Below, piece by piece: positions 23,316 to 41,900 of a stretch of DNA of 48,998 nucleotides (the first letter of the stretch is position 1; each line of letters opens with the position of its first letter). The notes beneath the pieces are model-generated. The model was not told where the DNA came from. It searched no databases and worked only from the letters and a program-made list of their open reading frames with translations. This DNA comes from Candidatus Poribacteria bacterium (GTDB lineage: Bacteria; Abyssobacteria; SURF-5), in NCBI GenBank assembly GCA_016215705.1, contig JACRIR010000024.1, positions 1-48,998 of the forward strand, written 5' to 3'. The position numbers and the translations under genes were made by a program.

Positions 23316-24092
23316 ATGCCAACAGCTCGGTGGGTAATGAGAACAGTGGTAATTGGTCTACTAGGTTCCGCGTTGATTTTGTCTTGTCAGACGACTTCCT
23401 CCAACGTTCAAATCGGACTCGCCGGCCCTATGATCAAGGGCGCAGAGTACGTGGGGATGGAGACGTGCGAGGCGTGTCATCCTGACCAGGCAAAGCGATT
23501 CAAGTTAACCTCGCATTTTGAGACAAGCGTGAAGGAAGGGGAAAACTCCAAAGGTGAAGCATGCGAATCCTGCCACGGAGCGGGAAGCCTGCATGCGGAC
23601 TCCGGTGGAGACCCTAGCAAGATAGTCAGGTATTCCGCCGACCGGTGCTTTGTCTGCCACGTTGACATACGGGGCAAGTTCCAACTCCAATATCACCACC
23701 CTGTCCCGGAGAAATGGATGAAATGCACCGATTGTCACAACCCGCATTCAGAAGACGTGAAGTCATGGTCGGCAGTATCCGTTCTGCGTCCCGGGGAAAT
23801 CTGTTTCAGATGCCACAAGGAGTTCAAGGGACCATTTGTATTTGCGCACGACCCATTGCGCGACGGCTGCCAGGTATGCCATAACCCGCACGGTTCGGTC
23901 TTCAAGAAAATGCTGATTGCCGATGGGGTCACGCTGTGCATCCGCTGCCATTGGGAACCGGCCACGAATACCGTGGATGCGAACTTCGCGCATATGCCTC
24001 ACGGAGGCTTTGCAATCGGGCGGGGTTCGGAATGCGTCGATCACCATACGGCCGTGCACGGCTCGAATATCGAGCGGCACTTCTTCCGTTAG
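23316..24092 (+). CDS. Heptahaem c-type cytochrome lipoprotein (DmsE/MtrA-like), copy 1
   Basis: 258 residues, with GAAGGAGAAGGGAG upstream of ATG 23316. The signal peptide ends in the lipobox LILSC (Cys24); Gln at +2 predicts outer-membrane sorting. Seven CxxCH sites follow: CEACH, CESCH, CFVCH, CTDCH, CFRCH, CQVCH and CIRCH. An eighth site reads CVDHH inside ECVDHHTAVHGSN, the place where DmsE/MtrA-family proteins have a final CxxCH followed by IHGSN. So it looks like a reduced relative of the decahaem MtrA/DmsE cytochromes that carry electrons through an outer-membrane barrel. The matching barrel gene follows 67 bp downstream, and a near-identical pair comes next. A role in extracellular or trans-outer-membrane electron transfer is strongly suggested by context. 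Confidence 0.9.
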   Translation: MPTARWVMRTVVIGLLGSALILSCQTTSSNVQIGLAGPMIKGAEYVGMETCEACHPDQAKRFKLTSHFETSVKEGENSKGEACESCHGAGSLHADSGGDPSKIVRYSADRCFVCHVDIRGKFQLQYHHPVPEKWMKCTDCHNPHSEDVKSWSAVSVLRPGEICFRCHKEFKGPFVFAHDPLRDGCQVCHNPHGSVFKKMLIADGVTLCIRCHWEPATNTVDANFAHMPHGGFAIGRGSECVDHHTAVHGSNIERHFFR

Positions 24093-24159
24093 TTAATGAA
24101 CGGGTCGCCCGTGGCTATCCTTGAACCACGACCACATCGCAATGAGGAGGATTTCTGAT

Positions 24160-26169
24160 ATGAAAGCGGCAAGGAAGCTCCTTCCGACACTGCTACTCGG
24201 ACTGCTCGTCACAATGGTCGTCTCCGTTCCAGCGGTTGCGCAGAATGATCCCCTTGAGGACCTGAATAGCCGGCATTATCCATACGGCGCCGAGGGGCCG
24301 GACGGCTGGTACTATGGATGGTACGCTCGAGGAGGGGCCACGTTTTACGACGTGAACGGCGATGAAGGGCGTTTCCGTGAAGACAGGTTTATCAAGGACC
24401 AGCTTACCGGCGGCATCGAGCAACTCTCGTATTCAAAGGAAAACTGGAATGTCTCGGTTCGCGCAATCGTTCCGGACAATTACTCCGCCGATGCGCATTA
24501 CCTCAAGCCCGATGTATTCCGCCTGGACTTAGACTTCAGCAGGCATCGCAAATATTATGATCTCATCAGCGAAGCGTGGAATCCCGCTCCCGCGTTCTAC
24601 GGTTTGACCGATGATTTCGCAGAGGCCGGCGACGACGACCTGTTTGCCGACCGGACGGACCTCAACCTCGAGGGTCAGCTTTTGATTCCGGAGATTCCGA
24701 ACATCATACTTGGCTGGCATCATTGGGAACGCACCGGAGATGAAGCGCTCGCGCGCGGCGGCGACGCCATTTCGATTAGTCCTGACGTGCCGACCCGTGG
24801 CGCCATTCCCGTGACAAACGACCTCGACGGTAAGAGCGATACCGTGTACGCGGAAATCCCGGTGACCTTCCGCGAGAAGTACAATTTCAAGTTGCGGCAA
24901 GAATACGAGACTTTTCGTGACGACCAGCGTGCCGCAACCACAACTTTTTTTGACGGCGCCCCTATTGCGACGTCTGTGCACGATGACGAGCCTGAGTGGA
25001 GAGAGTTCAGGACGCTTTTTGTCTTTGACGGTTTTCTTACCGAAAACGTTTATGCGACTGCGAGCTATTACCACAGCGACCTCGAAAACGAATTCGAGCG
25101 GAACGAACTGGACCCGGGCAGCGCTTTTCAGACGTTCACGGACAACGACGTGGACAATGACCGCGTCAGCGACACTCTTACCCTTGGGCTTGTCGTGTTT
25201 AATATCGCCAAAGACCTGACGCTGCACACAAACTTCAGAGCGGAGAATTCGGATACCGATGGTGACAGCTTCGGCAACGAATTCGGGACACCGACCGTGA
25301 ACGCATCCGACACCGATGAGACGCGCCTCGGGGAATCCCTGACCCTCGTTTGGCAGGGCTTTTCCCATACGACCATTACCCTTGACGGAGAGTGGGAGCA
25401 ACGATCCCTTGACATAAAAGAAGTGGTTGAGAACGAATTTTCGAGGGACGCCAATATTGATCACGCGAAACAGCAATATACGTTCACAGTCGTGAATCGG
25501 CCGCGTCGCGACCTGAGGCTCACAGCGAGGTATCGCTTCAAGGACAACGATGAGAATTACGACGAAGATTTCGACCTGGAACCCGACGAATATCCAGGCA
25601 TACTCGGCGACCTGGAGCAGGATTCTCATGAAATCACTTTGAAGGGAGACTGGCAATTTCTTCCAACGTGGACAACGACGCTCGAATATCAGTTCAAGAG
25701 CGCAGATGGGCAGTTCGATATTCAGAATACCGAGGGACAAGAGTTGGACGTGCACAGGATCTCCGGAACAGTTTTCGGGACACCCACGGAGAGGCTGATT
25801 CTGACCGGCATGGTGGCATATGAGAACTTCCAACTGGACACGCCCACCGACGAGCCACCCGGCAACGAGTGGCAAGATGGAACAGGGGCGTATGACACGC
25901 ACTACGATTCATATGTGCTTTTTGGCAGAGCGAAATATGTGATAAGCGAGAAATGGTCCACGGATTTGTCGTATCAACACACAGAGAATACCGGCAGAGA
26001 CGTGAACAACAATCTCGACGAGGTCTGGGTTGGGGCCGATTACGAACTGGCCGAGGGCAAAACCTTGAGCGCGCGGTATGAGTTTTTCGACTTTGATGAC
26101 GGCTTAGGTGACGGCTTCGACGACTACGACGGACACGGAATCTATTTGGCCTTCGCTTGTCGGTTCTGA
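24160..26169 (+). CDS. MtrB/PioB-like outer-membrane beta-barrel, copy 1
   Basis: 669 residues from the ATG at 24160, with GAGGAGG at 24144-24150; a TTG-started frame from 24121 is less likely. The signal peptide is cleaved near VPAVA-QN. The mature part is a long run of alternating strands rich in Tyr, Asp and Arg (ENWNVSVRAIVPDNY, EKYNFKLRQEYETFRDD, QYTFTVVNRPRRDLRLTARYRFKDND) and ends in a C-terminal Phe, as outer-membrane barrels do. It resembles decahaem-associated porins of the MtrB/PioB type, which sheath the cytochrome. The N-terminal CxxC of Shewanella MtrB is missing; the only mature cysteine is in the last strand (FACRF). Partner: the heptahaem lipoprotein just upstream. Confidence 0.82.
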   Translation: MKAARKLLPTLLLGLLVTMVVSVPAVAQNDPLEDLNSRHYPYGAEGPDGWYYGWYARGGATFYDVNGDEGRFREDRFIKDQLTGGIEQLSYSKENWNVSVRAIVPDNYSADAHYLKPDVFRLDLDFSRHRKYYDLISEAWNPAPAFYGLTDDFAEAGDDDLFADRTDLNLEGQLLIPEIPNIILGWHHWERTGDEALARGGDAISISPDVPTRGAIPVTNDLDGKSDTVYAEIPVTFREKYNFKLRQEYETFRDDQRAATTTFFDGAPIATSVHDDEPEWREFRTLFVFDGFLTENVYATASYYHSDLENEFERNELDPGSAFQTFTDNDVDNDRVSDTLTLGLVVFNIAKDLTLHTNFRAENSDTDGDSFGNEFGTPTVNASDTDETRLGESLTLVWQGFSHTTITLDGEWEQRSLDIKEVVENEFSRDANIDHAKQQYTFTVVNRPRRDLRLTARYRFKDNDENYDEDFDLEPDEYPGILGDLEQDSHEITLKGDWQFLPTWTTTLEYQFKSADGQFDIQNTEGQELDVHRISGTVFGTPTERLILTGMVAYENFQLDTPTDEPPGNEWQDGTGAYDTHYDSYVLFGRAKYVISEKWSTDLSYQHTENTGRDVNNNLDEVWVGADYELAEGKTLSARYEFFDFDDGLGDGFDDYDGHGIYLAFACRF

Positions 26170-26191
26170 GGCTGGCGAGAATGGAGGGTGT

Positions 26192-26225
26192 AAATCCCCC
26201 CTTCCCCCCTTTGCAAAAGGGGGTC
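26192..26225. repeat. CCCCCTTTGCAAAAGGGGG inverted repeat
   Basis: An imperfect relative of the 46-bp palindrome at 12302-12347. It lies 23 bp after the first barrel gene and could act as a terminator. The rest of the gap to 26717 contains no gene I can support. Confidence 0.6.
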
Positions 26226-26717
26226 ACAATGGAGCCTTTGGAAACGGGGGGCGTATAGGTGCGAATTTACTCGCAGAGGCAATGTGAAAAAAAGGCCGCA
26301 GATTCTATGCGAAGAAACTCGCACCCACAGAAGTCTGGGCCAATTTGCCGGTCGCAGGACAATCTCATATAGGGTGATTTGACCGAGAGGGTGCGTGATT
26401 TCACCTCCGCTGAGGGTTCGAACTCACACACTCAAGAGCGAGGTACGCGGCGCTGTCGCGAGGTCAGGCTGTGTGTGAGCTTATCCTCTGGGTTAGCCTG
26501 TGCCATCAAAGGAAACTTTATTTCAGCGCTTGAGATGGTGGCAGGTGAACCTGGCAAACTTTACCTTCCACATATACAATAGGCTCAACTGCGCATTCTG
26601 TTCAAACGTTCATCAAGCAATTGGCATGTGGATTGCTCAACCTTGCGCGGCAAGATCAGTGCATCCTCCGGCGACATTCCCATAAAAAGGCTTCAGTTGG
26701 ACAAATGAACATTTCTC

Positions 26718-26747
26718 TTGACACCAAACGGTTGTTCATGGTATATA
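26718..26747 (+). promoter_or_regulatory. Promoter of conduit operon 2
   Basis: TTGACA at 26718-26723, an 18-bp spacer and TATATA at 26742-26747. It gives the second copy a transcript of its own, with a leader of about 190 nt before the ATG at 26942. Confidence 0.6.
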
Positions 26748-26795
26748 TCAATATACGATATCCAAATACGATATCAATGCAAGATATGAATTGCC
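26744..26795. repeat. Four 13-bp iterons (GATATC/AAATAC) at the promoter
   Basis: Units begin at 26744 (TATATCAATATAC), 26757 (GATATCCAAATAC), 26770 (GATATCAATGCAA) and 26783 (GATATGAATTGCC), with a strict 13-bp step. They overlap the -10 box and cover the start region, so a regulator binding cooperatively here is plausible. Nothing similar precedes operon 1. Confidence 0.65.
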
Positions 26796-26941
26796 TGGGA
26801 GGAGGTGAGAAGAAGAATCCACACACTGAATCCCCGCCTGGTTTTTTCAACAAACACACCCCAATATCTTATTCGTCTGTATCTTCGTGTCGCTCAATTT
26901 TCTGAGAACAGAACTGCTTAGACCTAGGAAAGGGTACCCAT

Positions 26942-27730
26942 ATGCCAAAGGTCCGCTGGATAGTGAGGATATTGGTGATTGGCTTCTTGGGTTCCGCTCT
27001 TATCTTGTCCTGCCAAACGACCTCGCCCCAGATGCAAATGAGTCTTGCCGGTCCAATGATCAAGGGGGCGGAGTATGCGGGGGTGGAATCCTGTGAGGCA
27101 TGTCATCCGGAGCAAGTTAAGCGATTCAAACTGACTTCTCATTTTGGAACGAGCGTGCAGGAGGGAGAACAGGCCAAGGGAGAAGCATGTGAGTCTTGCC
27201 ACGGCGCGGGAAGCTTGCATGTTGAGGCGGGCGGCGACCCGAGCAAGATCGTGAGATATTCGGCCGAGCGCTGTTTCACTTGTCATGTCGATATACGGGG
27301 CAAGTTCCAGCTTCAGTTTCATCATCCCGTACCGGAGAAATGGATGAGTTGTACAGACTGTCACAATCCGCACGGGGAAGACGTGAGAGCATGGTCGGCT
27401 GTGTCGGTCCTGCGGCCGGGAGAAATCTGTTTCAGGTGTCATAAAGAGCAAAAAGGGCCGTTTGTTTTTGAACATGATCCGCTGCGCGATGGGTGTCAAG
27501 TATGTCATGACCCGCACGGGTCAGTGTTTGACAGGTTGCTTATCGCCAACCAGACGGTTCTTTGCATCCGATGCCATTGGGAGCCAGCCACAAACACGGC
27601 GGCGGGTAGTTTCGGAGGCGTCGCGCATGGGGCCGGCGGCGGCAACTTCTTCATAGGCCAAGGGGAGGAATGCGTTGATCATCATCGGGCTCCTCATGGC
27701 TCCAACATCTGGCGCACATTCAACAGGTAA
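26942..27730 (+). CDS. Heptahaem c-type cytochrome lipoprotein (DmsE/MtrA-like), copy 2
   Basis: 262 residues, AGGAAAGGG before the ATG. It is a close paralogue of the 23316 protein throughout: the same signal peptide and lipobox (LILSC, Cys24), the same seven CxxCH sites (CEACH, CESCH, CFTCH, CTDCH, CFRCH, CQVCH, CIRCH), and the same altered eighth site CVDHH in ECVDHHRAPHGSN. Differences concentrate before that eighth site, where this copy has a glycine-rich insert (GVAHGAGGGNFFIGQGEE). The second barrel gene follows 61 bp downstream. Retention of the altered site in both copies suggests it is functional. Predicted as an outer-membrane lipoprotein relay within the second conduit. Confidence 0.9.
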   Translation: MPKVRWIVRILVIGFLGSALILSCQTTSPQMQMSLAGPMIKGAEYAGVESCEACHPEQVKRFKLTSHFGTSVQEGEQAKGEACESCHGAGSLHVEAGGDPSKIVRYSAERCFTCHVDIRGKFQLQFHHPVPEKWMSCTDCHNPHGEDVRAWSAVSVLRPGEICFRCHKEQKGPFVFEHDPLRDGCQVCHDPHGSVFDRLLIANQTVLCIRCHWEPATNTAAGSFGGVAHGAGGGNFFIGQGEECVDHHRAPHGSNIWRTFNR

Positions 27731-27791: not shown

Positions 27792-29891
27792 ATGAAATCT
27801 GCCAAGACGCTAATTCCGGCCTTAGTTGCCGGAATAATGGTGGCGCTGGCCATCTCTTCTATTGCCATTGCGCAGGGAGACCCACTTGAGGACCTGAACA
27901 ATTGGTACTACCCCTATGGGCAACAAGAAGAGATGGGCTGGTATTACGGCTGGTACGCACGAGGCGGCGCAACGTACTACGACGTGGAGGGAGATGACGG
28001 ACGCTTCCGACATGACAAATACATCGACGACCAGCTCACCGGTGGGATCGAACAGCTCTCATACAATCAGGAGAACTGGGACGTTTCGGTGCGAGCTGTC
28101 GTTGAGGATGACATTGCCGCAAGGGTTCATTACCTCAAACCTGAAGTATTCCGGATGGACTTTGATTTCCGCAAACTCCGAAGATACTACGATATTTCGG
28201 ATGATCCATGGGACCCAATCGCATACGGCTTTGACTCGGAGCGGCAGGTATTCCCGAGCGACGACAATACGTATGCCGACCGAGTCGACATGAACCTGGA
28301 AGGTCAATTGCTGATCCCCGAGATTCCCCATCTGATCCTCGGATGGCATCATTGGGAACGGTTTGGTGAAGAAGTGCTGGTTCGAGGCGAGCGGGTGCGC
28401 GTAACAGGCGACGTTCTGCCGAGGCAACGTGTCACGCCCGCCGTATCGGATTTGGACGGAAAGAGCGACACACTGTATGCAGAACTGCCGTTTACCATCC
28501 AGGAGAAATACAACTTCAAATTGCGTCAGGAATATGAGGCATACAGGGACGATCAGCTCATCTTATTCACCAGGTTTCTTAACGGGGACCCGGAACAGGA
28601 GCGAATTTTTGACGATGAGCCGGAATTCGACGAGTTTCGCACGCTGTTCAGTTTCGATAGTTTTCTCACCGACGGCATATACGTGAGCGCAAACTACTAT
28701 CACAGCGATTTGGAAAACCGGTTCGCGCGCGACGAAACCCGCAACAACTTCCCGGGACCGACGACGGATGTGTTTTTTGTTGACACGGATGTTGATAACG
28801 ATCGCGTAAGCGACGTGCTCGCGCTGGGCATAGTGTTCCTCGACCTATTGAAAGACACGAGGCTCAACGCGAATTTCAGAGTGGAACAGTCCGACACCGA
28901 TGGCAATAGCACCGGGTTCGAGGTTGTCGAAGCTACCGGCGCACGTATTCCACACACTCAAGACACGGGTCTGGACGAGACCCGGTTTGGTGAGTCAGTT
29001 GGAATTGTATGGAAAGGGATGGAAAACACGACGGTGGCGCTCGAGGGCATGTGGGAACAGCGGTTCCTGGACGTCGATGAGAATGACGATGTAACACAGC
29101 ATGAGCTCAGCGCCGCCCCGTTCTTCGGGCCCGACTCTTTCATACGCGACACCGACGTCGACCACCTCAAGCAACAGTATACTTTCACGGTCGTCAATCG
29201 GCCCCGCAGGGATATCAAGCTGACCGCTCGATATCGTTTCAAGGACAATGATGAAGACTACGACGATAACGTTGACCTCGAGCTCGGGGACCCAACACCC
29301 GCCGTGGAGAACTATCCCGGCGTTCTTGGCGACCTGGAACAGCAGACGCACGAGATAACACTCAAGGGTGACTGGCATTTTCTGCCGGCATGGACGGCCT
29401 CTGCGCAGTACCAGTTTGAAGACAGCGACGGCGAATTCGATATCCAGGATACAGAAGGCCAGAAACTACAATCGCACCGCGTGTCGGGAACCATTTACGG
29501 AAGCCCGATGCAACGACTGATGCTCACTGGCATGGCAATGTATGAGAACTTCCAGTTGGATACGCCCACCGATGCGCCGGCCGGAACCACTTGGGCCGAC
29601 GGCACGGGCGCGTATGATCTCAGCTATGACTCATATGTGCTTTTTGCCAGCAGCGACTATGTGATAAACGAAAAATGGTCGACGAATCTGTCTTATCAGC
29701 TTACCCTGAATACAGGGAAAGACGTGGATAACCGTTTGGATGAAGTATGGGTAGGCGCAGAATACAAGCTTGCGGAGAACAAGACCGTCAGCGCTCGTTA
29801 TGAGTTCTTCGACTTTGACGACGAATTCGGCGATGGATTCAACGACTACCAGGGGCACGGCATCTATTTGGCGCTTGCCTATAGGTTCTAG
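27792..29891 (+). CDS. MtrB/PioB-like outer-membrane beta-barrel, copy 2
   Basis: 699 residues from the ATG at 27792, with GAGGAGG at 27776-27782. The signal peptide ends near ISSIAIA-QG. It is paralogous to the 24160 barrel from the N-terminal DPLEDLN and GWYYGWYARGGAT motifs to the C-terminal GHGIYLALAYRF. The strand QQYTFTVVNRPRRD is identical in both. It is about 30 residues longer, with extra residues in predicted loops (for example EVVEATGARIPHTQDTG and the stretch before FIRDTDVDHLKQQ). There is no cysteine in the mature protein. Aspartate-rich loops (DNDEDYDDNVDLE) could bind calcium or metal ions. No surface multihaem cytochrome of MtrC/OmcA type is encoded nearby, so the outer partner is unknown. 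Confidence 0.82.
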   Translation: MKSAKTLIPALVAGIMVALAISSIAIAQGDPLEDLNNWYYPYGQQEEMGWYYGWYARGGATYYDVEGDDGRFRHDKYIDDQLTGGIEQLSYNQENWDVSVRAVVEDDIAARVHYLKPEVFRMDFDFRKLRRYYDISDDPWDPIAYGFDSERQVFPSDDNTYADRVDMNLEGQLLIPEIPHLILGWHHWERFGEEVLVRGERVRVTGDVLPRQRVTPAVSDLDGKSDTLYAELPFTIQEKYNFKLRQEYEAYRDDQLILFTRFLNGDPEQERIFDDEPEFDEFRTLFSFDSFLTDGIYVSANYYHSDLENRFARDETRNNFPGPTTDVFFVDTDVDNDRVSDVLALGIVFLDLLKDTRLNANFRVEQSDTDGNSTGFEVVEATGARIPHTQDTGLDETRFGESVGIVWKGMENTTVALEGMWEQRFLDVDENDDVTQHELSAAPFFGPDSFIRDTDVDHLKQQYTFTVVNRPRRDIKLTARYRFKDNDEDYDDNVDLELGDPTPAVENYPGVLGDLEQQTHEITLKGDWHFLPAWTASAQYQFEDSDGEFDIQDTEGQKLQSHRVSGTIYGSPMQRLMLTGMAMYENFQLDTPTDAPAGTTWADGTGAYDLSYDSYVLFASSDYVINEKWSTNLSYQLTLNTGKDVDNRLDEVWVGAEYKLAENKTVSARYEFFDFDDEFGDGFNDYQGHGIYLALAYRF

Positions 29892-30087: not shown

Positions 30088-31446
30088 ATGTGGCAAAGGA
30101 TTGACAGAAAACTGCGGTCTCCGATACTGACAGTCACACTAATTTGCGTCATTGGGCTCGCTTCCATTATCGGAACCGTCCCGACGCAGATTCTGCGGAA
30201 GAGTGAAAACGCCGCCGTTATCTACGAACTGCTTCGCGCCGTCGGAGCGGACCATCTTTATGGGACGTGGTGGTACTTGTCGCTGCTCGTGTTCCTCGCG
30301 TTCTTAATGACATACTGCTCGTTGCGAGGACTACCCTCGATAATCAGGACATTCAGCTTCATCCCCGATGCTTCGGCTTGGCCGAACCGAGAAGAAGGGG
30401 AGAAACATTCGTTAGCATTGTCCAATGATTCCGAGAGCTCGGCCCGCGAGAGAATCAGTCGCATTTTGAAAGACAATGGATATCATCTTCGCTCGGTTTC
30501 TCATACCGGCGAGGACACCTCCATCGTGTTCGAGAAGGGACGAGCAGGAGTTTTGGGGCCGCCGCTCGTGCATTTCGGACTGGTTGTCGTTTTTATCGGC
30601 GGGCTCATTACGTACAAATTCGGTTCGGCCTCCGAGATCAATATTGGCGAAGGCGAATCCTATGCCGTCCCCGGAACGGAGATGACTACCCGGCTTGAAA
30701 AATTCTCGATTATTCACCATCCCGGCACACGCGAACCAGAAGAGTATGTCAGTTCTCTAATGGTAAAAGATAAGTCGGGTCAGCCGGTGTGGCATCTGTT
30801 GCGCGTAAATCAGCCGCTCAATCTTTCCGGAATCAGCCTGTACCAGATGCGTTATCGACCAGAAGTCCGACACATCAGACTTGCGGCTTTCGAGCCGGGG
30901 AAGCGATCCTCCATTGGAATCGTTGACCTTGTTCCTGGCAAGAAGGCTGAATTGCCGGCGCAAAACCTTGCAGTCAGACTGGAGGAAATCATCCCGGATT
31001 TTGTCGTTGACTCGAAGAACAATGTGTCCTCGCGAAGTCAATATTTCCTGAATCCGGCCGCCAGAATTTCTCTTCTTCCGTCTTTTCAAGGAGCAGAGCC
31101 GATATGGACCGGTTGGGCATTCAAGGGGATGTTCCCGGCTCACAACTCGCCCGAGCCCCCGCTGCTTTTTGTGATTGAGCGCGTGAGCCTGAAATACTAT
31201 TCCGGAATCAAGATAGTGAGAGACCCGGGCGGTCCCGTGGCTTATCTTGGTTTCGCGTTCCTCGTAGGGGGAACGTTTCTTACCTGTTACGTATTTCGGC
31301 GTTTTGTCCGCCTCGACTTTGGCGCCGATACTCCGAATGAGTGCGGCTGCGTAACAGTCTCGGGATATAGTTTGAAGAACCGGCCCGATTTTGCGAATGA
31401 ACTACAAGGGTTGATGGTCCGGTTGCGCAAGGGACAAGAGGTATGA
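30088..31446 (+). CDS. resB: Cytochrome c biogenesis protein ResB/Ccs1
   Basis: 452 residues, with TAGGGG before the ATG. Three N-terminal membrane helices are visible (PILTVTLICVIGLASIIGTVP; YLSLLVFLAFLMTYCSL; PPLVHFGLVVVFIGGLITY). A large extracytoplasmic domain with INIGEGESYAVPGTEM, LRVNQPLNLSGISLYQMRY and GWAFKGMFPAH follows, and the last helix is VAYLGFAFLVGGTFLTCYVF. This is the ResB/Ccs1 family, which with CcsA forms the System II haem ligation complex. It overlaps ccsA by 4 bp (ATGA). Placement directly after two multihaem cytochrome operons suggests they are its main clients. Confidence 0.93.
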   Translation: MWQRIDRKLRSPILTVTLICVIGLASIIGTVPTQILRKSENAAVIYELLRAVGADHLYGTWWYLSLLVFLAFLMTYCSLRGLPSIIRTFSFIPDASAWPNREEGEKHSLALSNDSESSARERISRILKDNGYHLRSVSHTGEDTSIVFEKGRAGVLGPPLVHFGLVVVFIGGLITYKFGSASEINIGEGESYAVPGTEMTTRLEKFSIIHHPGTREPEEYVSSLMVKDKSGQPVWHLLRVNQPLNLSGISLYQMRYRPEVRHIRLAAFEPGKRSSIGIVDLVPGKKAELPAQNLAVRLEEIIPDFVVDSKNNVSSRSQYFLNPAARISLLPSFQGAEPIWTGWAFKGMFPAHNSPEPPLLFVIERVSLKYYSGIKIVRDPGGPVAYLGFAFLVGGTFLTCYVFRRFVRLDFGADTPNECGCVTVSGYSLKNRPDFANELQGLMVRLRKGQEV

Positions 31447-32312
31447 ACTCCACTATTTGGCTTGGGGTTGTGCAACTCGTTTATTTTGCCGGGAGCATCC
31501 TATTTTTTCTGGCGGCTTACTCGAGACGTGGGTGGCTGTTGAGGGCTGCGGCAATCTCGGGCCTGGGCGGCGCCACCGTCCAACTCGGATTCATTGTTCA
31601 TCGCGGCATGCTTGCTCGCCGATTGCCGATAACAAACACGTATGAAACGCTCGTGCTTTTCTCTCTGCTCTTGATGGTTTCCTACTTAGTGGCTTACAGG
31701 AGATACGGCATCCCTGCGCTTGGAGGATTCGCGAGTCTTGTCGCCGCCGCCATGCTTTCTGCGTGTTCGCTGATGTCATCTGAGATAGAGCCGCTCCTCC
31801 CCTCGCTCAAGAGCAACTGGCTGTTGTTTCATGTTCTCGCCTCTTTTCTTGGGTATGCCGCCTTCGGGCTCGCATTCGCGTCAGCAACAACCTATCTCAT
31901 ATTGGAGTTGGGGCTGGCGCGCATGCTTGGATTCAGGGCCTACATTCACCCTGCGTCTGCGAACGAGTTGGCTCAGACCCCGCCGGAGAAAGGATCGGAC
32001 AATTTGGCGATACCGGACTTTCTCGACTGGTTCACGTACCGGGCCATCGCATTCGGGTTTCCGCTGCTTACACTGGGAATTGTGACTGGGGCAATCTGGG
32101 CCGATGCATGCTGGGGAAGCTACTGGAATTGGGACCCGAAAGAGACATGGTCGTTCATAACGTGGTTCATCTACGCCGGCTGTCTCCACATGAGATTCGC
32201 CGGAATGCGGGGAAGAACCTCGGCGATAATGGCCGTAATCGGATTCGGGTGTGTCATTTTCACTTACTTCGGCGTGAACTACTGGCTTGCCGGTCTGCAT
32301 GCGTACGCGTAA
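31443..32312 (+). CDS. ccsA: Cytochrome c biogenesis protein CcsA/ResC (haem channel)
   Basis: 289 residues with about eight hydrophobic segments. The family signature WGSYWNWDPKETWSFITWFIYAGCLHMRFAG, the tryptophan-rich haem-handling WWD motif, is at about 222-252. It continues with FGCVIFTYFGVNYWLAGLHAYA at the end. CcsA moves haem to the outer face of the cytoplasmic membrane and, with ResB, attaches it to CxxCH cysteines. It is translationally coupled to resB (stop and start overlap). In this window System II would have to cope with the altered CVDHH site of the two cytochromes. Confidence 0.95.
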   Translation: MNSTIWLGVVQLVYFAGSILFFLAAYSRRGWLLRAAAISGLGGATVQLGFIVHRGMLARRLPITNTYETLVLFSLLLMVSYLVAYRRYGIPALGGFASLVAAAMLSACSLMSSEIEPLLPSLKSNWLLFHVLASFLGYAAFGLAFASATTYLILELGLARMLGFRAYIHPASANELAQTPPEKGSDNLAIPDFLDWFTYRAIAFGFPLLTLGIVTGAIWADACWGSYWNWDPKETWSFITWFIYAGCLHMRFAGMRGRTSAIMAVIGFGCVIFTYFGVNYWLAGLHAYA

Positions 32313-33502: not shown

Positions 33503-36500
33503 TTACGGAGTTGCCTCGACGCTAAAGTTAAAGTGGTACTCATTGGCAATTATTGGATTCTCGCCGTAAATATAGGCGTTGTATGCATACATTCCGAGCG
33601 GAGCAGTCCCTGGAATGCGATGTGTCAGATGCGCCGAACGGCTCTCGGCCCCATTCAGCGCTACCTCATAAGGTCCCAGGAGCGCGCCGGTTGGAGGATG
33701 ACTGTTACCATCGGGGCGGGTGACCGTGGTCCAGTACCTGAACGTGATGGGTGAAAGTGTCTCGTTTATGACGGTTACGTCGTATCCGAGCACTCCGCCC
33801 CTGGTAATCGAGATTGCATCCGGAACGAGTAAGAGGGGGGCATCCTGATAATCATCCATGTATTCATCTGATCCGATATCGGGCAACGCCCCTACCGGCC
33901 TCGGATCGCCGTCAATGTCGTCGGCAGGGACTCCGGAAATCGAGCCTGCGTCAACACATGGCGAAGCCGGATTCAGGTGATAGTCGCCCTCCGTCCACGT
34001 CGTTCCGTTCCAATAGCCCGGCTGGACGAACAAGGGATCGATGTTGACGTTGCTTGCAGCGTCCCAATCGAGCGTGCAACCCGGGTCCACATAAATGTAC
34101 GATGTGCCACCCTTGACATCGCTGTAGCTGATCGACACAGATGAGTCATAGCCGGTGGCGCCGACTGTCATCTCAGGGCCATAACTGGACCCCCAACTAG
34201 CTGTGTTGCCCCACAGGATGCAGTTCTCGATGTTCAGCATTGAAGCAAAACAAGAGATCCCGCCACCGCCGGACGCCGTGTTCGCGGTTACAGTGCAGCT
34301 TGTAAGCGTTGTTGAAGAAGGCGCAAACGAGTAGTAGAGTCCCGCTCCGTAAGTAGCCGTGTTGCCGATTATGGCGCAGTTGGCAATGTCCGGAGACCCG
34401 GAGTAAACCATAATACCCCCGCCCGAGTATGACGAGTTTTCGCTGATGGCGCACTTGCTGATACTCGGAGCAGGAGACACGGAGGAGTAGATTCCACCTC
34501 CATAGGTCGCTGAGTTACCGGTGACGACGCAGTTGGTAATTGACGGAGCGCCAGCCTCGGTAAGTATCCCTCCACCGGCTTCAGCCGAGTTGCTGCTGAT
34601 GATGCAGTTGGCAATCGTCGGGGAAGCAGCCGCGCAGAAGATCGCACCGCCGTAGCCGGCAACGGAGCCACCAGTGATGGTGAACCCATCAACGAGCGAA
34701 TCAGAGTCCTCGCCGCTGTGGAAATAGAACCCTCGCCCATTGCCCTGGCAATCGATTATGGTATTCGCGGGCCCGTTAGCGGAGCGGAGAGTTATCGCCT
34801 TGCCGCCGAAATCGAGGTCACGGTTATCGACACCTGTATAAGTGCCGTCGCGAACGATTATCGTATCGCCATTGATCGCGTCGTCTATGCCGAGTTGAAT
34901 GGAGCAGAACGGGTCGCCAACCGTTCCTGTGCCGGGACAGGTATTGGCGGCATCCACATGAAGCTCGCGGATTTCGGGTTCAACCCCTTGGCTGTACGCC
35001 GCAGTGTCAGATTCCCCTTCTGCGCACGTCACCGTAACGGTAATGTCATAGTGCTGAACAGCGCTAGTCAGATTCGCGGGCGCAGTCCAGGCAGGAGTCT
35101 GGGCAGTCGAATTATCGAAGGAGCCACCAGCAGCGCTCCACAGATAACTCAGCGCATGGCCGCACGCGTCGTTTGCCGTTACGCTCAAGTTCACGTCGCC
35201 CGCTGATTCAACGGGATTAGGCGCCCCCGAAGGAGCGGGGGTTATCGTGACAGCGTCAACAACTCCGGGCGACACATCCTGCTGGTACGAATCGCTCGCA
35301 TATTGCCCCTCGGAGCAGGTGACCGTCACGCTAATCGTATACGAAGAGGTTGTCGCGCAGGTCGGATTCACCGGCGCATGCCATACGGGGTTCTGAGCAG
35401 TTGGGTCGCTGAACGTGCCGCCGGTAGCGCTCCACAGATAGCTGAGCGCATGGCCGCAGGTATCCTCCACCGTTACACCCACGTTCACATCGCCGCCTGA
35501 GACTGCGGGATTAGGCGCCCCTGACGGGTCGGTGGTTATCGTTACGGTGTCTGCGATCGACCCGAAAACCGCCTGCTGGCACGAATCGCTCGCAGACAAT
35601 CCCTCGTAGCATGACACCGTCACGCTGATAGTATATAGGGCCGTTGCGCAGGAGGCATTTGTGATCGCATGCCACACGGGGTTTCGAATGGTCGGATTAG
35701 TGAAAGAACCTCCTGTCGCGCTCCATAGATAACTGAGCGCATGGCCGCAAGTATCTTCCGCCGTCAAACTCAGGTTCACATCACCACCCGACGCCACGGG
35801 GTTGGGCGCTCCTGAAGGAGCAGAGGTTATGGATACGGTGTCAGCAATCCCCGGCAGCACATCCTGCTGATACGAACCGGTTGCATATTGCCCCTCGGAG
35901 CAGGTGACCGTCACGCCAATGGAATAAGATGCCGCAGCGCAGGTCGCATTAGTCGGCGCATGCCATACAGGGTTCTGAAGTGTTGGATCGCTGAAAGTTC
36001 CGCCCGTCGCATTCCACAGATAACTGAGCCCATGACCGCAAGTATCTTCCGCTGCCAAGCTCAAACTCACATCGCCACCGGATGCGACAGGGTCAGGCGC
36101 TCCTGAAGGACCGGAGTTTATGCTTACGGTGTCGGTAATCCCCGGCAGTACGTCTTGCTGATATGAACCGGTTGCATATTGACCCTCGGAGCAGGAGACC
36201 GTCACGCCAATGGAATAGGAGGCCGTAGCGCAGGTCGCATTAGTCGGCGCATGCCATATGGGGTTTTGAAGTGTTGGATCATTGAAAGTTCCGCCTGTCG
36301 CGCTCCACAAGTAACTCAATCCCTGACAGCAGGTTTCATCGATCGTCGCACTCAAGCTTACGTCGCCGCCTGCGGCCACAGGGTTGGGCGCTCCCGAGGG
36401 TCCGGAGGTTATCGCGATTTCCGGGATGACTGTGAAGGTCCCGTTGGCGGTAATGGACGGTATGACGTTTGCCGTTTCGTCGTACAAGGTAACACTTTCA

Positions 36501-36898
36501 AGGGCCAGGGGAGACGTGCATGCGCCTGGCGGGTCGTCCACCGACGCAAGCACCTCCACGAACACACCGCCACCGCTTGTGATCGGCGTTGCACGCGCTA
36601 TGGAAACAGCTACACGTCCTCCATTCGGGTTAACGGCCATAGAAAATCCGGTTGTGAGCGGCGTCAACTGAGCATTGGGTGGCCGCGGGGTAAGAACGGC
36701 AGAGTCAAACGTCAGAGCTATATCAGCTCCGGCCACTCCTGTTGCGTCATCTATGTTAATCGGGATGACGACATTAGCTCCAGCAGTGGCTGATAAATCC
36801 GGCACACTGACAGAGCGTTGCGCGAGCGCACTTGCCGGCGCCATGAAAAGCAAAGCCAGGCCGAGAAATATAGTTGGGATCGCTCGTAGCGTCTTCAT
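33503..36898 (-). CDS. Secreted modular protein: cohesin-like, five Ig/PKD-like repeats, beta-helix
   Basis: 1131 residues, AAAAGGAG before the ATG at 36898. Signal peptide ends near residue 26 (ALA-QRSV). Residues about 27-160 form a cohesin-like domain (VSVPDLSATAGANVVIPINIDDATGVAGADIALTFD, ending in a TLYDETANVIPSITANGTFTV strand). Five Ig/PKD-like repeats of about 95 residues follow, each with SGPSGAPNPVASGGDV, a CGHALSYLWSATGG core and a C-rich SYQQDV end. From about 645 a right-handed beta-helix starts (CSIQLGIDDAINGDTIIVRDGTY; repeats like ITNCVVTGNSATYGGGIYSS), ending with SPCVDAGSISGVPADDIDGDPRPVG and DIGSDEY. A final roughly 95-residue beta-sandwich closes it. There is no LPxTG, PEP-CTERM or dockerin. 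Its last ~490 residues are nearly identical to those of the 38968 protein. Function: surface adhesion or scaffolding, inferred. Confidence 0.85.
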   Translation of the reverse strand: MKTLRAIPTIFLGLALLFMAPASALAQRSVSVPDLSATAGANVVIPINIDDATGVAGADIALTFDSAVLTPRPPNAQLTPLTTGFSMAVNPNGGRVAVSIARATPITSGGGVFVEVLASVDDPPGACTSPLALESVTLYDETANVIPSITANGTFTVIPEIAITSGPSGAPNPVAAGGDVSLSATIDETCCQGLSYLWSATGGTFNDPTLQNPIWHAPTNATCATASYSIGVTVSCSEGQYATGSYQQDVLPGITDTVSINSGPSGAPDPVASGGDVSLSLAAEDTCGHGLSYLWNATGGTFSDPTLQNPVWHAPTNATCAAASYSIGVTVTCSEGQYATGSYQQDVLPGIADTVSITSAPSGAPNPVASGGDVNLSLTAEDTCGHALSYLWSATGGSFTNPTIRNPVWHAITNASCATALYTISVTVSCYEGLSASDSCQQAVFGSIADTVTITTDPSGAPNPAVSGGDVNVGVTVEDTCGHALSYLWSATGGTFSDPTAQNPVWHAPVNPTCATTSSYTISVTVTCSEGQYASDSYQQDVSPGVVDAVTITPAPSGAPNPVESAGDVNLSVTANDACGHALSYLWSAAGGSFDNSTAQTPAWTAPANLTSAVQHYDITVTVTCAEGESDTAAYSQGVEPEIRELHVDAANTCPGTGTVGDPFCSIQLGIDDAINGDTIIVRDGTYTGVDNRDLDFGGKAITLRSANGPANTIIDCQGNGRGFYFHSGEDSDSLVDGFTITGGSVAGYGGAIFCAAASPTIANCIISSNSAEAGGGILTEAGAPSITNCVVTGNSATYGGGIYSSVSPAPSISKCAISENSSYSGGGIMVYSGSPDIANCAIIGNTATYGAGLYYSFAPSSTTLTSCTVTANTASGGGGISCFASMLNIENCILWGNTASWGSSYGPEMTVGATGYDSSVSISYSDVKGGTSYIYVDPGCTLDWDAASNVNIDPLFVQPGYWNGTTWTEGDYHLNPASPCVDAGSISGVPADDIDGDPRPVGALPDIGSDEYMDDYQDAPLLLVPDAISITRGGVLGYDVTVINETLSPITFRYWTTVTRPDGNSHPPTGALLGPYEVALNGAESRSAHLTHRIPGTAPLGMYAYNAYIYGENPIIANEYHFNFSVEATP

Positions 36899-38967: not shown

Positions 38968-41900
38968 CTAGGGCGCCTCGACGTCAAAGTTGAAGTGGTA
39001 CTCATTGGCAATTATTGGATTTTCGCCGTAAATGTAAGCATTGTACGTGTACGTTCCGAGCGGAGCAGTCCCTGGAATACGATGTGTCAGATGCGCCGAG
39101 CGACTCTCGGACCCATTCAGCGTTACTTCATAAGGTCCCAAGAGCGCCCCAGATGGAGGATGAATATTCCCATCGGGTCGGGTGACCGTAGTCCAGTACC
39201 TGAACGTGATGGGTGAAAGTGTCTCGTTTATGACGGTTACGTCGTATCCGAGCACTCCGCCCCTGGTAATCGAGATTGCATCTGGAACGAGTAAGAGGGG
39301 TACATCCTGATAATCATCCATGTATTCATCTGATCCGATATCGGACGCGCCTACCGGCCTCAGATCGCCGTCAATGTCGTCGGCGGGGACTCCGGAAATC
39401 GAGCCTGCGTCAACGCATGGCGAAGCCGGATTCAGGTGATAGTCGCCCTCCGTCCACGTCGTTCCGTTCCAATAGCCCGGCTGGACGAACAAAGGATCGA
39501 TGTTGACGTTGCTTGCAGCGTCCCAATCGAGCGTGCAACCCGGGTCCACATAAATGTACGATGTGCCACCCTTGACATCGCTGTAGCTGATCGAAACGGA
39601 TGATTCATAGCCGGTGGCGCCGACTGTCATCTCAGGGCCATAACTGGACCCCCAACCGGCTGTGTTGCCCCATAGGATGCAGTTCTCGATGTTCAGCGTT
39701 GAGGCAAAACAAGAGATCCCGCCACCGCCGGACGCCGTGTTCGCGGTTACAGTGCAGCTTGTAAGCGTTGTTGAAGAAGGCGCGAACGAGTAATAGAGCC
39801 CCGCTCCGTAAGTCGCCGAGTTCCCGGTTATGGCACAGTTGCCTATATCGGGAGAGCTGGAGTAAACCATAATACCCCCGCCCGCATATGCCGAGTTTGC
39901 GCTGATGGTGCACTTGCTGATACTCGGAGCAGGTGCCACGGATGAGTAAATTCCGCCTCCATAGGTCGCTGAGTTACCGGTGACGACGCAGTTGGTAATT
40001 GACGGCGCGCCACCCTCGGTAAGTATCCCTCCACCGGCTTCAGCCGAGTTGTTGTTGATGATGCAGTTGGTAATCGTAGGAGAAGCCCCTGCGCAGAAGA
40101 TCGCGCCGCCGTAGCCGCCGGCGACAAAGCCGTTCGCAATGGTGAACCCATCAACGAGCGAATCAGAATCCTCGCCGCTGTGGAAATACAGCCCTCGCCC
40201 GTTGCCCTGGCAATCGATTATGGTGTTTGCGGGCCCGTTAGCGGAGCGGAGAGTTATCGCCTTGCCGCCAAAATCAATGTCCTGGTTGCCGAGACCCGAG
40301 TAAACGCCGTCATGGACAATAATCGTACAACCGTCCTCCGCGTCATCAATGGCCGGCTGAATTGAACAGAACGGGTCGTTGACCGTTCCGATTCCCGGAC
40401 ACGTGTTGGCGGCATCTACATGAAGCTCGGTGGGACCTCCCGGCTCAATACCTTGGCTGTATGTGCCGGTGTCAGACTCAGCGGGATTCTCTGAGCACGT
40501 GACTGTCACAGTGATGTCACAGTACTGAATCGCATCTGTAGAATTCACAGGCGCTGTCCATACTGGGTTCGGTGAGGTCGGATTATCAAACGAGCCGCAG
40601 GTCGGGCTCCACTGATAATTCAGCGCATGGCCACAAGCATCGTTCGCGGTCACGCTCAGATTCACGTCGCCTCCCGAGGCCACAGGATCGGGATTCCCTG
40701 ACGGACCGGAAGTGATTGTGACGGTGTCAGTCACCGCTCCGGACACCGTTTGATCAAACGAATCAAAGTCAAAGACGTTTGGGTTCTCGTAGCATCTAAT
40801 AGTCACACTGATCGCACGCAAAGTGGCTGCACATGTCGGGTTTGCGGGCGCCGTCCACACAGGATTCTGGGCGGTCGGATCATTGAAAGAGCCGTCCGGC
40901 GCGCTCCAAAGGTACGCAAGCGCATGCTGACACGAATCCTCGCCAGTAACACTGCAATTGACGGTTCCGCCCGAGGCCACAGGATTGGGATTTCCTGACG
41001 GACCGGAGGTGATTGTTACGGTGTCGGTCACCGCTGCGGACACAGTTTGGTCGAAGAAATCGAAGTCAGAGACGGTTGGGTTCTCGTAGCATCTAGCGGT
41101 CACGCTGATCGTGTGCAAAGCGGCCGCACAGGTCGCGTTCACGGGGGAAGTCCACACAGGATACTGGGCCGTCGGATTATCGAAAGAGCCTCCGGTGGCG
41201 CTCCAAAGGTACGTGAGGGTGTGGTCACATGAGTCCGCGGCCGTAACACTGCAATTTACTATTCCTTCGGACGCCACTGGATTGGGCGCGCCTGAGGGTC
41301 CGGAAGTTATCGTTACTGTTTCCGGTCCCACACAGAATCTTCCGTCATCAAACTCAACGGGAAGCGCCTCAGATTCGGTTTCGAAGAGTCCTTCGGTCAG
41401 GTCCAAGGCGCTGCAATCCCCTGGTTGGCCGATAACGTGGAAGGTGATGTTAAGCAAGTCGCCTTCATCCTCCGAGAGCGCGGTTGTGCTATAGAGTGTG
41501 ACACGAACCTCTCCCAAGGTCTCGAGATTCGGCGTCACCGTAAAGTCCGTGGTATATACAGTTTTTGTCACAGAAAGCGCATATATTTTGGTGGCGTCGT
41601 ATAAGATGGTGAGGTTGGTGACGGCAATCACACCCGTGGCGCCGGTAACATGAACCGGCACGGCGATATCCTCGCTAGTGGGACCGGCAGGACAATCGTC
41701 GGGCAAGCTGACGACCACGGTCTGCACACCTGCTTGCACGACCGGGGCCGATTGTTCCAGAGGCGTGCCCGGATTCGAGCCGGGACATGCAGGCGGCTGC
41801 CAACTGCCGTTCACGTCTCCCATCACCATCGCAACATAATCCTCGTTCTCATGATCGGCAATGAGAGGAGTGTATGACCGATTGGCCGGCGTGAACTTCC

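Follow-up and report, generated by a model that had tools for sequence, protein, structure and literature searches.

Two MtrA-like conduit cytochromes with a CVDHH motif at the position of the last haem site in a Candidatus Poribacteria genome

Two tandem conduit loci and their last haem site

The window analysed here, a stretch of 48,998 nucleotides (positions 1 to 48,998 of contig JACRIR010000024.1, assembly GCA_016215705.1, Candidatus Poribacteria bacterium; GTDB lineage Abyssobacteria, SURF-5), contains two tandem pairs of genes, each for an MtrA-like multihaem cytochrome and an outer-membrane barrel, followed by genes for a cytochrome c synthase, all on the plus strand in the order cytochrome A, barrel A, cytochrome B, barrel B, ResB, CcsA. 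Copy A of the cytochrome (P0001, 23316..24092) has 258 amino acids and copy B (P0002, 26942..27730) has 262; both are octahaem-type lipoprotein candidates whose short, hydrophobic N-terminus ends in ILSC, a plausible lipobox. Barrel A (24160..26169) and barrel B (27792..29891) are of the MtrB/PioB type, with PF11854 scores of 26.5 and 23.7 bits against a cut-off of 23; with the stricter model TIGR03509 they score 17.5 and 13.9 bits and do not reach its cut-off of 240. No MtrC gene was found between or beside the cytochrome-barrel pairs of the window. We think that the two loci are porin-cytochrome conduits of the MtrAB kind, in which the cytochrome is predicted to be inserted into its barrel and to transfer electrons across the outer membrane. 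The last two genes encode the System II cytochrome c synthase subunits ResB (CcsB; 30088..31446, PF05140, 168 bits) and ResC/CcsA (31443..32312, PF01578, 164 bits, WWD motif WGSYWNWDPKE).

A preliminary description of this DNA had reported that both lipoproteins carry seven CxxCH motifs plus CVDHH in the context ECVDHH-x-A-x-HGSN. Codon patterns on the plus strand gave precisely this, with exactly seven CxxCH in P0001, exactly seven in P0002, and the same context at the two C-terminal ends, ECVDHHTAVHGSN and ECVDHHRAPHGSN, respectively. CVDHH is encoded as TGC GTC GAT CAC CAT in copy A (24033..24047) and as TGC GTT GAT CAT CAT in copy B (27671..27685), the codons for Val and the first His differing silently; HGSN follows at 24057..24068 in copy A. 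In the pairwise alignment with Shewanella MtrA (PDB 6r2q_A), the window segment CVDHHRAPHGSN falls on CLNCHSQVHGSN, the tenth haem motif of MtrA, where CVDHH is aligned to the CLNCH of haem A10. The multiple alignment of homologues from many families agrees, as CVDHH shares a column with the last CxxCH. That CVDHH might not be positionally equivalent to the last CxxCH of MtrA/DmsE was considered, and equivalence was found instead; both alignments also bear out the replacement of the second Cys by His with retention of the haem His. By this homology, CVDHH is the haem-10 (A10, exit) site of an MtrA-type wire, and with one Cys in place of two it is no canonical c-type site. Haem A10 of MtrA is the outermost and the only surface-exposed haem, passing electrons to MtrC (PMC7198977), in line with the proposal that the altered site lies at the end of the wire. 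Together with the rarity and the long retention of the change, described below, this makes it probable that the wire has, at its exit point, either a haem attached in an unusual way or no ordinary haem at all.

The multiple alignment shows that the window copies lack haems 3 and 4 of MtrA and have canonical motifs at sites 1, 2, and 5-9, site 10 being the altered one. Sites 5-10 are arranged as in DmsE/MtrA, and HGSN comes after the last of them, but in place of the ten CxxCH of this family there are seven CxxCH and one CxxHH. Scores for the NCBIfam DmsE-family decahaem model TIGR03508 (155.7 and 162.2 bits) are below the curated cut-off of 192.2, and those for the GSU2203-family decahaem model NF041028 (165.5 and 177.9 bits) are below the curated cut-off of 325. 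Because these cut-offs are missed, the window cytochromes are classified here as octahaem-length relatives of MtrA/DmsE, not as formal members. With MtrA of the Shewanella MtrCAB complex (PDB 6r2q; PMC7198977) they have in common the haem order over sites 1, 2, and 5-10 and the conduit (lipid-barrel) arrangement, including the adjacent MtrB/PioB-type barrel (PF11854) of MtrAB and porin-cytochrome systems. However, MtrA has ten canonical haems, whereas the window copies have seven canonical sites and one altered; moreover, unlike MtrA, they are predicted lipoproteins with no adjoining MtrC gene. The octahaem OmaB/OmaC of the Geobacter porin-cytochrome conduit (Pcc; PMC4245776), likened here by description only, also combine an eight-haem periplasmic cytochrome with a barrel.

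Eight haem sites need eight distal ligands, and eight conserved His residues outside the motifs are present in the octahaem group: H67, H93, H127/128, H144, H178, H192, H229, and the His of HGSN (numbers up to 229 apply to both copies). His229 is encoded at 24000..24002 in copy A, and its equivalent at 27626..27628 in copy B. In a relative from genome G674, described below, the loss of haems 9 and 10 is accompanied by that of the His229 equivalent and HGSN; on the simplest reading, these two His residues are ligands of haems 9 and 10. Stereochemistry prevents a His placed four residues beyond a motif His from reaching the opposite face of that motif's haem; therefore, the HGSN His probably ligates haem 9, leaving His229 as the putative distal ligand of haem 10. 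If so, the window copies would keep, for haem 10, both axial ligands and one thioether Cys out of two, and the retention of His229 suggests that haem 10 itself is kept. An AlphaFold model obtained from the two window sequences had a pLDDT (predicted local distance difference test) of 28.6 and was discarded.

Conservation of the site and its occurrence among homologues

The two cytochromes are 78% identical at the protein level. Only 25 of the 85 four-fold degenerate sites are identical between them (0.294, compared to 0.268 expected for random letters), and the synonymous distance is saturated, allowing no estimate. As the four-fold sites have been randomised, the residues still shared by A and B must be constrained; these include Cys1, both His of CVDHH, His229, and HGSN. 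The segment from C244 to N255 (copy B numbering) is identical at 10 of 12 positions, compared with 9 of 21, His229 among them, in the preceding loop (residues 219-243 of B), and so the conservation of CVDHH despite divergence just before it, pointed out in the preliminary description, holds also against the saturated background. Moreover, a change from Cys to His needs two base substitutions via Arg or Tyr, and the same outcome in both copies can be taken to indicate that His was selected. These patterns argue that the change is old and selected rather than an error or fresh decay. A sequencing or assembly error, a pseudogene, or recent gene conversion between the copies might be suspected in a draft genome of 270 contigs; however, the motif is written with independent synonymous codons at two loci, synonymous sites are randomised throughout, and both reading frames are full-length, each with its barrel. 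On the codon analysis of the two copies we rejected this explanation as highly improbable. CVDHH may have a single origin, although the branching order of this genome's three paralogues has low support.

The homologues came from a set of 386 genomes sampled across the domain, from two phyla with 369 and 396 genomes, and from some smaller sets. Searches from genus to phylum level, in which the phylum of the window was represented by only three genomes, yielded no closer relatives; the phylum of G049 was represented by one genome. In total 159 distinct homologues were classified by their last site, which was CxxCH in 153 and CX4CH in six; CxxHH was found in none of the 159. A permissive pattern allowing other residues gave the same outcome and left three unclassified: a site cut off where its contig ends, a canonical site followed by HGGQ, and a site missing through natural deletion. 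The His of HGSN was invariant in the 158 homologues counted with this pattern, and a His between haem 9 and the last site was present in all 159. No orthologue of the conduit was found in the two sister genera of the window's family. The contig scan with P0002 found no relative, and none was found in viral contigs, while the scan with A1 gave a single distant multihaem protein (24% identity). In the literature searched, no paper mentioned CXXHH in connection with haem. The suggestion that CxxHH might be a clade-wide trait is not supported: among the homologues found, it is confined to two of this genome's three paralogues.

The third paralogue forms another complete cytochrome-barrel pair in the source genome (G000:C139:16852-17622; L003 1495-2268, L065 11850-12623). 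It is 71-72% identical to the window copies and has the same architecture and its own barrel, but its last site is a canonical CIDCH, followed by MGSN where all others have HGSN. Thus, the altered site belongs to both conduit cytochromes of the window, as had been stated, but not to all those of the genome, which holds its own control at the equivalent site; within this genome, exit sites depart from the norm in two different ways. No ResB/CcsA genes were found downstream of the third paralogue on the part present on the contig. With the Met of MGSN, one haem of the wire could have natural His/Met ligation; with the ligand assignment proposed above, this would be haem 9.

The nearest parallels in another phylum are octahaem conduit cytochromes of three genomes (G132, L034; G679, L062; G673, L063), which have seven CxxCH in the same places as the window copies, an eighth site before HGSN, and a barrel gene next to them, with ResB/CcsA following in G132. 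Unlike in the window, the eighth site there is CX4CH (CWSAGCH) with both Cys present, and the identity is 38-41%. CX4CH of the form CWxxGCH was observed at the last site of MtrA-type cytochromes in L034, L062, L063, L111, L112, and L113, which make up two unrelated groups. No atypical motif was reported in a 2014 survey that covered Pcc periplasmic and Mtr cytochromes (PMC4245776); relatives with CX4CH go beyond that report and indicate a more variable exit site.

The relative in G674 (L069 5201-5851) has an in-frame loss of the segment with haems 9 and 10, while six haem sites, the other six His positions, the C-terminal FDDHLRY, and an adjoining full barrel gene are kept. The G674 assembly is a draft, and collapse is a possible cause of the missing segment. 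Also in another phylum, G781 (L082 / L215 7238-7990) has an MtrA-type cytochrome of octahaem form whose eight CxxCH are all canonical; this cytochrome lies on a long branch apart from the window group, and haems 3 and 4 could have been lost independently.

The adjoining System II synthase

The ResB and CcsA domains, the latter with the WWD motif, identify the gene pair downstream of the conduits as a System II synthase. The source genome has three ResB and four CcsA-type loci; System II synthase paralogues were seen at 30088-32312 of the window and on contigs C49, C73, C141, and C90 of G000. Two of the CcsA sets have orthologues in each of the family's three genera, with identities of 73-81% (C49-type) and 63-66%, whereas the window CcsA is only 38-40% and 32-35% identical to these two sets, and no orthologue of it was found in the two sister genera. 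By this comparison, the window pair appears to be accessory to the family's set.

ResB/CcsA genes stand next to the conduit in the window as well as in G132 and G304, and the G674 conduit has a CcsA fragment nearby; the last sites of these cytochromes are all non-standard or missing. Near canonical conduits they were found at none of 18 loci, one of which has a gene for a CcmF-like protein about 5 kb away. They were also absent from the DNA examined at the G679, G673, and G018 loci, which belong to CX4CH relatives as well. This distribution is compatible with an accessory lyase that moves together with the conduit. A substrate-specific role of the window lyase would be in line with its co-location and with the absence of orthologues from the sister genera, the association being confounded by phylogeny. 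In Wolinella, dedicated System II synthases serve non-canonical motifs, NrfI for CXXCK and CcsA1 for CX15CH (PMC12285233), and may be compared to the window pair as accessory ResB/CcsA-type enzymes. However, both Wolinella motifs keep the two Cys, unlike CVDHH, the putative substrate of the window lyase.

What the altered site may hold

We tentatively favour the reading in which haem 10 is retained, held by Cys1 only, ligated by His, and matured by the adjacent lyase. In this case the haem would be attached through a single thioether at Cys1, with the retained motif His as the proximal and His229 as the distal ligand; at the wire's outer end, the His in place of Cys2 would change the attachment, the pocket, or the potential, and the downstream ResB/CcsA would act as an accessory haem lyase for both conduits, as NrfI and CcsA1 do in Wolinella. 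One-Cys c-type haems are known but rare. In the A/FXXCH cytochromes c of Euglenozoa, as in the window, one motif Cys is missing and the haem His is kept; however, Cys1 is lost there, Cys2 binding vinyl-4, whereas in the window Cys2 is lost and Cys1 kept (PMC5526843). Several points weigh against a retained haem. In the literature consulted, natural single-thioether c haems lose Cys1 and keep Cys2, the reverse of CVDHH (PMC5526843), and purified CcsBA attached haem in vitro only if both thiols and the His were present (PMC8112865). Furthermore, HGSN may be kept merely as the ligand of haem 9, the link between the lyase and odd last sites is confounded by phylogeny, and orthologues of the conduit are known from one genome only. 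The fuller claim, of a natural c-type haem on Cys1 of CxxHH at a conduit exit, made by the neighbouring lyase, in a motif not described before, is possible but doubtful.

The two-thiol requirement of CcsBA in vitro (PMC8112865) agrees better with the main rival, which is itself doubtful: haem 10 is gone and haem 9 forms the end of the wire, CVDHH and HGSN being kept for structure, for contact with the barrel, or for ligation of haem 9 by the HGSN His. The window lineage has already undergone shortening, as haems 3 and 4 are absent, and the G674 relative, lacking haems 9 and 10 next to a full barrel gene, suggests that some lineages can do without the end of the wire. However, loss of the haem leaves unexplained why Cys1, both His, and His229 survived in both copies through saturating synonymous divergence, and why Cys was replaced by His and not by a random residue. 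The same conservation would suit a non-haem metal site (Cys/Asp/His/His with Fe, Cu, or Zn) or a redox-active or surface-reactive Cys-His exit or substrate site, since four potential metal ligands occur within five residues fully conserved between the copies and the equivalent position of MtrA is surface-exposed (residues 284-306 and A10, PMC7198977). We consider this unlikely, as the site is derived from one for haem, with the haem-type spacing preserved, profile searches yielded no partner motif or family match pointing to a metal, and a metal that is not redox-active would leave a gap in the wire. Less probable still is a b-type (non-covalent) or otherwise bis-His haem with the first Cys unreacted; the motif His and His229 are both available for it, but a strictly conserved free periplasmic Cys would be left without explanation, and we know of no such non-covalent haem in the MtrA-type family.

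If electrons flow outward, as presumed, they leave the cell at the last haem of an MtrAB-type conduit. A deliberate departure from CxxCH at this point would mean either that natural c-haem synthesis accepts the one-Cys motif CxxHH or that the wire works without its exit haem. A haem on Cys1 of CxxHH, if true, would contradict the stated two-thiol requirement of System II synthases.

Possible electron partners of the conduits are encoded elsewhere in the source genome: a cluster of large multihaem proteins (G000:C145:65341-66465 and 77818-80693; open frames of 464-668 amino acids) showed weak local matches to the conduit cytochrome. In the window itself, positions 33503-36898 of the minus strand encode a large repetitive secreted protein, the apparent CxxCH patterns of this region being antisense. 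The 15-base stretch TGTACGATGTGCCAC (plus strand) is present at 34096 and again at 39555, which suggests a second gene related to the repetitive secreted protein.

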